Both the position numbers and the translations under genes were made by a program. Below are positions 9,511 to 12,694 of a stretch of DNA of 36,988 nt, piece after piece. How positions within the stretch are numbered: the stretch's first letter is position 1; every line of letters begins with the position of its first letter. A model generated the notes under the pieces. That model ran no database searches, was not told where the DNA came from, and worked only from the letters and a program-made list of their open reading frames with translations. Source of the stretch: Streptobacillus ratti (GTDB lineage: Bacteria; Fusobacteriota; Fusobacteriia; Fusobacteriales; Leptotrichiaceae); NCBI RefSeq assembly GCF_001891165.1, contig NZ_LKKW01000011.1, forward strand, positions 1 to 36,988. Direction: 5' to 3'.

Positions 9511-9535
9511 GAAACAAGAGTGATTAAATCACTCT
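9511..9535 (-). terminator. Terminator overlapping the rpoD stop codon
   Basis: AGAGTGAT (9535-9528), loop TTA, ATCACTCT (9524-9517), then TGTTTCT. The 8-bp stem begins within the rpoD TAG. The T-run is interrupted, so efficiency may be partial. Confidence 0.6.
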
Positions 9536-10673
9536 AATTTCTAAAATCTTCTAATCCTTTTTTCTTTTTAATATTTTTCAATTTATTTATAGCCTTAACT
9601 TCTATTTGACGTATTCTTTCTCTTGTTACATCAAATATTTTTCCAACTTCTTCTAAAGTTTTAGGAGCACCATCATCAAGCCCATATCTTAATCTTAATA
9701 CTTGTTCTTCTCTTTCATTAAGTTCTTTTCTAAGTATATCATTTAATTTTTCTTTTAATACAGATCTTACTGTAGCTTCATGAGGATTTAAGAATTTATC
9801 ATCTTCAACAAAATCTCCTAATTCTGAATCATCTTCACTTCCTACTGGAGTTTCTAATGATATTGGATCTTGATTCATTTCTAAAATATTTTTAACTTTT
9901 TCTACTGGCATTTCAACTATTTCAGCTAAATAATCATCAGTAGGTTCTTTCCCTGTTTCTTGTAAATGTATTCTCGATGCTTTCTTTATCTTATTTATAG
10001 TTTCTATCATATGTACAGGTATTCTTATAGTTCTACCTTGATCAGCTATAGCTCTTGTTATAGCTTGTCTTATCCACCATGTAGCATATGTTGAAAACTT
10101 AAACCCTTTATCCGATTCAAATTTTTCAACTGCTTTCATTAATCCTATATTACCCTCTTGGATTAAATCAAGTAATTTTAAACCTCTATTTGTATGTTTT
10201 TTAGCAATACTTACAACTAATCTTAAATTTGATTCCATTAATTGTTGTTTGGCTCTTTCATCACCTTCACCTATACGTTTTGCTAATTCAAACTCTTCCT
10301 CACTTTTAAGTAAAGGTATTTGACCTATTTCTCTTAAATACATTTTAATTGGTTCATCAACATCTGATGATTCACTAACAGTTGTTAAATCTTCGTTTAA
10401 TAGGGCTTCGACTTCTTTTTCATCGATATTTATTTCTGGCTCTTCTCTTTTTATTTTTTCTACTTCTTTTTTCGATTTATTTTTGTCGGCTATTTTATTT
10501 ACAATTTCTACATTTAATTCTTGCAACTTAAAAAATGTAGCTTCTATTTTATCTTGAGAGAAATTATTTTTCATTAATTTATTAATTTCTTCTCTACTAA
10601 TAATTTTCTCTTCTTTCGCTATTTTGATTAAATTAGATAAACTTTCCTTTAAATCTATATTTTTAGCCGCCAT
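9534..10673 (-). CDS. rpoD: Primary RNA polymerase sigma factor (sigma-70/SigA)
   Basis: A 379-residue housekeeping sigma factor, close to Bacillus SigA in length. A short region 1.1 (1 to about 100) is followed by region 1.2 ([17 protein letters not shown]), region 2 with the core-binding and -10-recognition helices ([46 protein letters not shown]), region 3 ([17 protein letters not shown]) and region 4 with the -35-binding helix-turn-helix ([20 protein letters not shown]). It follows dnaG with a 1-bp gap, the classical macromolecular-synthesis arrangement, and shares the dnaG promoter. The near-consensus TTGACA/TATAAT promoters in this window fit recognition by this factor. Confidence 0.97.
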
Positions 10674-10674
10674 T

Positions 10675-12453
10675 TCAATCTCCCTTTAAAACTATTATTT
10701 CTTTATAACATTTCTCCAAAGTATTAATATTCACAATATTTCTAAGTTTATTTAATAATTTACCTATATATATCTTTTTATCAATTTTTTCATTAATAGG
10801 TAATATATCAATTGAATCTTCATATTTTTTTATCAGTAATTCTAACCAAGTTTTAATTATTCTAATATAGTCTTCATCTGTATAGTTATTTTTAAATCCA
10901 CATGTTGTTTCTATCATAAATTCCTCTTCATCTTTAGTTAAAATAAGAGAGGAAGCTTTATACATTTTATAATCTACAGATAAAAGCTTTTTATGTAGTT
11001 CTATATATTTATTACTTTGAAATTGAAAAGATTTAAGCATATTATACAATATTTGATCTACTTCTTTTCCTAGTAACAAAAAAACTATACTTAATTTTTC
11101 TAATTCTTCTTGTTTATTTATCTTTTCATTAGAACTATCTTCAACAAATTTTTTAACAATATTTGTATTTTTATTAGTGTTTCTCATATACTTTGATAAA
11201 ATATATTTAGTTTCTACATCTATTAATTTTGAAAATTTTTCTATTTCAACACTATATACTATATCATTAGTTATGTTTTCAAAATATGATTTCATCAATT
11301 CTATTGCTTCTCTTTTTGAAGTAGTTTGAGTAAAATCAAAATCTTTTAAATTCATTTCAAATACATAATCTAATGCTCCTACAGATTTACCTAATATCTT
11401 AAAAAAATCATCTTTGCCATATTTTTTAAAATATTCATCAGGATCTTTTACATCATCAGGTAAACTAGCACATTTAATATTAAACTCTAATTTGTTTAAT
11501 ATATTTATTACTGATCTAGTTGCTTTTTGACCAGCTTCATCTTTATCATACATTATAATTATATTATCTGTATATTTCTTTAATAGTTTTGCTTGTTTTT
11601 CAGTAAAGGCTGTTCCTAAAGAGGCAACTGCACTATTAAAAGTATTAATATGTGAACTAAGCACATCTAAAAAACCTTCCATTAATATAGCATATTTTTT
11701 CTCTTTTATCTCTATACCTTTATTAAATAATCCATATAATTCACCACTTTTATCAAAGACATAGCTTTCAGTAGAATTTATATATTTAGGTATATTTATA
11801 TTATCACCTATATATCTTCCACCAAAACCAACTATTTGTTGATGACTATTAAATATTGGAAATATTATTCTTTCTCTAAACACATCATAAATATTATCAT
11901 TATCTGTACTACTTACCATAACTAAACCTAATTTAATTAATTCTTCGACTTCATACTTTTCTTTTAAATAATAATAAAGTGAATGCCAATCACTAGTAGC
12001 ATATCCTATATCATATCTATTTAAATCATTTAAATTAAATCCTCTATTAATTAAATATTCTTTAGCTTCTGGTGATTTTTCAAAATTTAATTTAAAAAAT
12101 TCTAGTGCATCTTTTAAAATTTTATGTCCAATATTATCTTTAATAATATATTTTGAATTACTTTTTTTTATACTAATACCATATTTTTGGGCAAGCTCAT
12201 GTAATGCTTCATAATAAGAAATATTTTTTATATATGAATAAAACTTTATTACATTTCCAGCTTTTCCTGAACTAAAATCCTTAAAAATTTTTTTTGTCGG
12301 ATGTACAGAAAATGATGGAGTATTTTCGCTTTTAAAAGGAGAATATCCCTTGTAACTTGCTCCTGCCTTATTTAAATCAACATATTGCCCTATTAGGTCA
12401 ACTATATCAACGTTATTAATTATTTTTTCTTCATCTTCAGACAGTTTATACAT
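10675..12453 (-). CDS. dnaG: DNA primase DnaG with degenerate zinc-ribbon domain
   Basis: A 592-residue primase that makes RNA primers at the replication fork. The TOPRIM catalytic core is intact: Glu259 (MEGFLDV), GTAFTEKQ (280-287), and Asp303 and Asp305 (MYDKDEAGQ). The N-terminal domain aligns without gaps to the CHC2 zinc ribbon ([15 protein letters not shown] then [10 protein letters not shown]), but the four ligands are Ser38, Lys41, Asp59 and Ser62 in place of Cys, His, Cys, Cys. Metal binding is therefore unlikely, although the fold may persist. The C-terminal DnaB-binding region (from about 430) is divergent. The start is ATG at 12453 with GGAGGAG upstream. The gene has its own promoter over the rpoZ 3' end and is followed immediately by rpoD. 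Confidence 0.95.
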
Positions 12454-12508: not shown

Positions 12509-12694
12509 TTAATCATTTTCAATAATTTTAACTTTTTCCTCTAATATATCTTCAAATACATTATCTATAATTTTAAATTTTTCTACACCCTCTATAAATT
12601 CTTTCCTAGCTGCTTTACCAGCTAAGATAGCTAATTCATATTTATTAGGTACTTTTTTCAATAATTCATCTACTGAAATTTTTTCCTTTTTCAT
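12509..12694 (-). CDS. rpoZ: RNA polymerase omega subunit
   Basis: A 61-residue protein with the omega signature PNKYELAILAGKAARKEF (about 16-33), preceded by ISVDELLKKV. Omega assists folding and assembly of beta-prime. The ATG overlaps the gmk stop in an ATGA, indicating translational coupling, and the gmk-rpoZ pairing is widely conserved. It is somewhat shorter than E. coli omega (91 residues), lacking the dispensable C-terminal tail. Confidence 0.93.
   Translation of the reverse strand: MKKEKISVDELLKKVPNKYELAILAGKAARKEFIEGVEKFKIIDNVFEDILEEKVKIIEND

Follow-up and report, generated by a model that had tools for sequence, protein, structure and literature searches.

The DNA primase (DnaG) of Streptobacillus ratti encoded in the 36,988-nucleotide stretch of DNA analysed here (the window) is most probably an ordinary replicative primase whose CHC2 ribbon has been metal-free since the ancestor of its family and has been kept so by selection. 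The loss of the zinc ligands goes back to the ancestor of the entire family and is under strong constraint; nor is it a single case, since it recurs among phage primases and in other lineages of bacteria. As read from the sequences, the case consists of the loss of all four ligands, the lack of any substitute cysteine or histidine, fixation in the family, vertical descent of the gene, and recurrence with the same core of residues. The features of the gene and of its ribbon are listed in Table 1.

The protein scores above the curated cut-off of TIGR01391 (364.1 bits against 283.6), its ribbon matches PF01807 over residues 9–98 (92.3 bits, cut-off 24.9), and the acidic TOPRIM residues E259, D303, D305 and D337 are all kept. 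The neighbourhood is normal (gmk, an omega-like ORF, dnaG and rpoD, the last being the usual neighbour of dnaG), and the nearest named relative is Streptobacillus notomytis, with 84% identity. The genome, which is 99.98% complete, was checked for a second dnaG with an intact ribbon; none was found, and PF01807 has a single match in it. The DnaG of the window is the cell's ordinary replicative primase, at full length. The gene looks functional, as an earlier note on this DNA had held from the TOPRIM residues and the usual neighbours; primer synthesis is predicted.

Table 1. Position of dnaG, its domains, its neighbours and the replaced ligand positions in the S. ratti window.
Feature	Position	Strand	Remarks
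dnaG, DNA primase, 592 aa	10675..12453	-	TIGR01391 364 bits; PF01807, DNAG_N and Toprim domains
N-terminal CHC2-type ribbon domain without zinc ligands, residues 9-98	12160..12429	-	PF01807 profile match
DNAG_N, N-terminal part of primase catalytic core, residues 120-243	11725..12096	-	profile match
TOPRIM domain, residues 256-341, acidic residues kept	11431..11688	-	profile match
rpoD, primary sigma factor, directly downstream of dnaG	9534..10673	-	named by eye from translation
Omega (RpoZ)-like ORF, 61 aa, between gmk and dnaG	12509..12694	-	named by eye
Ser38, first ligand position (Cys)	12340..12342	-	S in 32/32 family members
Lys41, second ligand position (His)	12331..12333	-	K 31/32, R 1/32 in family
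Phe57, aromatic accompanying ligand loss	12283..12285	-	F in 32/32 of family
Asp59, third ligand position (Cys)	12277..12279	-	D in 32/32 of family
Ser61, small residue accompanying ligand loss	12271..12273	-	S in 32/32 of family
Ser62, fourth ligand position (Cys)	12268..12270	-	T 19/32, S 13/32 in family

The ribbon aligns without gaps to that of Aquifex aeolicus DnaG (2AU3), and all four ligand positions are replaced. That the ligands had given way to Ser38, Lys41, Asp59 and Ser62 within otherwise kept surroundings had been proposed from the letters of the window, and the alignment bears it out, both the NTPSFSV motif and the GN after the last ligand position being present. The domain thus matches the PF01807 profile and lacks the Cys-His-Cys-Cys ligand set; judged from its sequence, it is a ribbon homologue and not a zinc ribbon. 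Domain order, flanking motifs, neighbourhood and, as predicted, the fold are shared with the DnaG proteins that carry a CHC2 zinc ribbon (1D0Q, the domain of Geobacillus stearothermophilus, and 2AU3, ribbon and core of A. aeolicus), the difference being that all four zinc ligands are replaced in the window DnaG, with no substitutes. Replacement ligands elsewhere were ruled out: the only cysteines of the protein are at positions 328, 518 and 582, none before residue 328, and a check of residues 1–110 across the family gave no conserved cysteine or histidine, the commonest being His110 (7/32) and His51 (3/32).

Residues 1–365 were modelled with AlphaFold2 from an input of 57 rows which included zinc-type rows. 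The model (mean pLDDT 93.2) has the expected ribbon strands, with a pLDDT of 96–98 over residues 31–60. In a Foldseek search with the predicted DnaG of the window, 2au3 ranks first, and the match to 1d0q has a TM score of 0.81 by target length (2.2 Å over 92 columns). The domain is thus confidently predicted to have the ribbon fold, matching the solved zinc domain of DnaG. Since no metal was modelled, the fold of the family is already known to AlphaFold2 and zinc-type rows were part of the input, the model supports the fold rather than stability without zinc, for which its confidence is weak evidence.

PF01807 was used to search 98 Fusobacteriota genomes, 96 of which matched, and the DnaG proteins were fetched and aligned. 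The family of the window (f1), which would correspond to the Leptotrichiaceae (Streptobacillus/Leptotrichia group), has a match in 32 of its 33 genomes, G067 being the one without, and all 32 readable family proteins read S-K-D-S, S-K-D-T or, once, S-R-D-T at the ligand positions (these counts omit L002, which is from the same species as G096). The other Fusobacteriota have C-H-C-C in 64/64 readable rows, from 63 genomes. L003, a second copy in G025, is within these 64 rows, and the ligand counts omit L097, from G028, the in-frame stops of which are aligned as gaps and the ribbon of which reads C-H-C by DNA-pattern search; the conservation count, of 63 rows, uses neither L003 nor L097. Taking a fixed difference as a residue present in at least 90% of each group, the family differs from those 63 rows at only positions 38, 41, 43, 59, 75 and 202 of 592. 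Within the family, positions 38, 41 and 59 are encoded by differing synonymous codons; together with the agreement of 32/32 members, this rules out an error or decay confined to a single genome.

Residues 75 and 202 lie outside the ribbon core, with Ile75 and Asn202 in the family and Tyr75 and Ser202 in the other Fusobacteriota; these changes are possibly compensating. The ribbon region of dnaG in G028 (L097, G028:C1:2970742-2971002) has a TAG and a TAA in frame in a genome that is 99% complete, which points either to an error of sequencing or to an essential gene that is broken. G067 (86% complete) and, outside the family, G013 (94% complete) have no PF01807 match, probably due to absent contigs. 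The genome G091 has, besides dnaG, two weak CHC2-type matches (G091:C3:7186-7332 and G091:C1:4162720-4162929), which are probably mobile-element primases.

Other zinc sites were compared in ten family genomes and five outgroups. The earlier note had argued from the zinc cysteines of RpoC, present in the window when the translation is read by eye, that the loss does not reach zinc sites at large. This part stands, since the zinc cysteines of DnaX and PriA are intact in 10/10 family genomes and those of bL36 in 9/9 found (G083 has no match), and a general loss of zinc is ruled out by these four proteins. It does not extend to bL31, which is zinc-free throughout the family: the cysteine-free form, found in 10/10 family genomes (L228, L230-L238) against 1/5 outgroups (G038), is the only bL31 type in the ten family genomes, while most of the Fusobacteriota outgroups have the zinc type (that of G063 was judged by score only). 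Some sparing of zinc therefore exists in the family, without a general loss of zinc sites. It is possible, though rather unlikely, that the primase ligands were lost for the sake of zinc economy, or for protection from oxidants, in a host mucosa that withholds zinc and makes oxidants, which would be compatible with a metal-free ribbon kept by selection. While bL31 speaks for such a cause, the intact sites of DnaX, PriA, bL36 and RpoC do not, and uS14 lacks the cysteines both in the family and in the three outgroups of Fusobacteriaceae type (it is of the cysteine type in G063 and G001), although the Fusobacteriaceae keep a zinc DnaG. The same loss is moreover found in phages and in small-genome bacteria, for which see below.

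The earlier note had also suggested that a ribbon without zinc may change how primers are started. The ribbon domain of primases recognises the template: its deletion in Bacillus subtilis is described as abolishing stable DNA binding (PMC5429622), and the ribbon of the phage T4 primase as stacking on template bases (PMC10359460). In the Clostridioides difficile DnaG, according to PMC5204125, the trinucleotide preference is set by a lysine beside the ribbon, so that single residues adjacent to the ribbon are able to do so. The basic position preceding ligand 3 holds a lysine in 29/32 family rows and in 59/63 zinc-type relatives. The preference-setting lysine of C. difficile presumably corresponds to Lys58 of the window DnaG. 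While the example of C. difficile makes it possible that the zinc-free ribbon alters start-site choice or primer initiation, we consider this unlikely, the lysine being mostly shared with zinc-type relatives and the adjacent surface hence largely alike. Binding of the template is expected to persist without the metal because the site has kept its surrounding residues.

The ligands have also been lost elsewhere. A scan of viral_contigs with the family ribbon alignment gave 80 loci, a biased sample in that the search words favour SPFK or TPSFxV[SH]PxK; within it, 44 primases have C-H-C-C and 36 have lost ligands, the first ligand included. The loss types are S-K-D-S (12), S-T-C-S (6), S-S-C-S (3), S-S-D-T (3), S-K-C-T, S-V-C-S and S-K-D-A (2 each), and six others found once each. 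Lys41 occurs together with Asp59 in 15/36 loss rows, and Asp at position 59 is missing in 14/36. A Phe or Trp at position 57 is present in 35/36 loss rows against 9/44 C-H-C-C rows, and a Ser or Ala at position 61 in 36/36 against 11/44. These phage and prophage primases share with the family the ribbon, Ser38, Ser/Thr62 and often Lys41/Asp59; they differ in being mobile-element enzymes of independent origins on the tree, several of which retain the third cysteine. Searches of phages and plasmids by tblastn gave named relatives as well.

Other bacterial phyla were read by DNA pattern, with the ligand positions left free, and the first ligand is lost in 4/194 primases read (G293, G296, G230 and G284). 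The 194 genomes comprise 69 listed (one loss, G293), 80 more (one loss, G296) and a last batch of 45 (two losses, G230 and G284), these 45 being primase-like matches by eye among 80 searched; 24 matched and 38 unmatched genomes stand outside the count. The ribbon of G293 reads S-R-D-S. In its phylum (120 genomes, 63 matched), its family f181 (L180) has S-R-D with Trp57 in 8/8 genomes, of about 0.8–1.0 Mb, against C-H-C in the other 55 matched genomes, and on these residues f181 is a second clade-wide case of ligand loss. The DnaG of G296 (L181, a genome of 0.6 Mb) reads S-T-C-T and lies between rpoC-like and rpoD-like frames, and that of G230 (L182), also S-T-C-T, is followed by an rpoD-like frame (both by eye). 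In G284 (L183, G284:C2), one long protein carries an S-H-D-N ribbon followed by the core of a primase and by a helicase-like region (by eye); it is probably the replication protein of an accessory element. A DnaG with lost ligands may also exist in the Flavobacteriia. The phage contigs, G293, G296, G230, G284 and f181 rule out that the loss is unique.

The DnaGs of G296 and G230 are of chromosomal type, with three ligands gone and the third cysteine retained, and the S-T-C type is also common in phage contigs. Such S-T-C-T ribbons possibly represent an intermediate state.

In a tree from which residues 38–62 were omitted (86 rows: 24 from the family, 19 Fusobacteriota, 40 phage and 3 other), the state of the first ligand changes 11 times, at least 6 of which are forced by well-supported branches; the direction is not fixed for each of these changes, and some may be regains. 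All loss rows in this set have Ser38 (44/44) and Ser or Thr62 (44/44). Phe/Trp57 is found in 43/44 loss rows against 7/42 zinc-type rows, and Ser/Ala61 in 43/44 against 9/42. When independent pairs are compared, Ser/Ala61 is tied to ligand loss (6 pairs, median p 0.03), and Phe/Trp57 shows no significant link (median p 0.5). What the losses have in common, and converge on, is a core of Ser38, Phe/Trp57, Ser/Ala61 and Ser/Thr62, with the Lys-Asp pair as one optional version. A Lys41–Asp59 salt bridge is ruled out as the general mechanism by the presence of the pair in only 15 of the 36 phage loss rows.

With the ligands gone, no substitute cysteine or histidine and a predicted ribbon fold, the metal-free fold that the earlier note had put forward is the best reading. 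We propose that zinc and its four ligands would have been replaced as a set by Ser38, Lys41, Asp59 and Ser/Thr62, with Phe57 and Ser61, and that this set has been held by selection since the family ancestor. The two knuckles would be joined by a serine/threonine hydrogen-bond pair, the aromatic residue at position 57 would fill the emptied zinc space, and a Lys41–Asp59 salt bridge may be the version used in this Streptobacillus/Leptotrichia family. The metal-free ribbon would still bind the template and help the TOPRIM core to start primers. It is very improbable that the site still holds zinc or a harder ion (such as Mg, Mn) by way of Asp59, of the Ser38 and Ser/Thr62 hydroxyls, or of other residues: Asp59 is invariant in the family and could join a weak site, whereas the Lys or Arg at position 41, present in 32/32 family rows, stands where a ligand would be and its charge works against a cation, residues 1–110 hold no conserved cysteine or histidine, and the 14 phage loss rows without the aspartate point the same way.

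The ribbon could also be a decaying relic that is no longer needed and from which the ligands drifted away. A precedent is the animal Twinkle, a T7 gp4-like helicase which, like the window DnaG, is a primase relative with a changed primase-domain sequence, and which is described in PMC3610141 as having lost primase activity and the function of the domain altogether; the window DnaG, in contrast, keeps its TOPRIM residues. We find such decay scarcely credible for the family, in which the replacements are fixed over diverse members and the motifs flanking the site are invariant. Residues 1–100 are as conserved as in the zinc-type Fusobacteriota (mean entropy of 0.94 against 1.05 bits), and the same residues recur independently. 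The family ribbon has the marks of a maintained replacement and not of decay; because the replacements hardly vary while their codons change synonymously, and because inheritance of the gene is vertical, the domain has probably been kept working.

Vertical descent was examined with a tree of 111 proteins covering ribbon and core, which took 22 of the 63 rows from Fusobacteriota outside the family, together with 55 of the 80 phage loci (60 covered the core sufficiently, and five near-duplicates were removed); L064, whose locus has an open frame of 252 aa, was not used for the trees. The family forms one clade (SH-aLRT 99) inside the Fusobacteriota (99) and away from the phage primases, and groups in the same way without residues 38–62 (support 87). 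The ligand loss therefore dates to the ancestor of the whole family, which is the date that the alignment had been expected to supply. A phage origin of the whole dnaG is not supported by this placement. That dnaG or its N-terminal domain was taken from a phage already carrying a zinc-free ribbon is extremely improbable: although S-K-D-S primases do occur on phage contigs, the family nests in the Fusobacteriota by ribbon and core, dnaG keeps its cellular neighbours, and the grouping holds without residues 38–62, even if such trees are blind to a transfer of about 25 residues.

A metal-free ribbon kept by selection has parallels among ribosomal proteins, for which cysteine-free (C-) forms such as bL31/RpmE2 are described in PMC5912738 and PMC13343924 as zinc-independent paralogues. 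These too are zinc ribbons with lost ligands, working without metal, which for DnaG is predicted as to both the fold and the absence of metal. The C- ribosomal proteins are often zinc-regulated spare copies, whereas the window DnaG is the sole primase of its genome, with a change that has become fixed. Loss of ligands in ribosomal zinc ribbons is reportedly recurrent in bacteria (Makarova, Ponomarev and Koonin, 2001). No paper on ligand loss in DnaG was found among the openly licensed literature, and the strongest novelty of the loss is its convergence.

Zinc in DnaG appears to be replaceable, because the replacement is fixed family-wide and similar changes arose independently in phages and in a few other bacteria. 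The metal-dropping primases of several lineages provide matched pairs with which the structural role of zinc may be separated from its role in recognition, and the convergent replacements supply a sequence rule for turning a zinc ribbon metal-free. A real, if tentative, possibility is that zinc only holds the primase ribbon together and is not needed for reading the template or for initiation, and that a stereotyped metal-free ribbon (Ser38, Phe/Trp57, Ser/Ala61, Ser/Thr62, with an optional Lys/Arg41–Asp59 pair) has replaced it many times and become fixed in whole bacterial families and in phages, where it may make replication resistant to zinc starvation and to oxidants.
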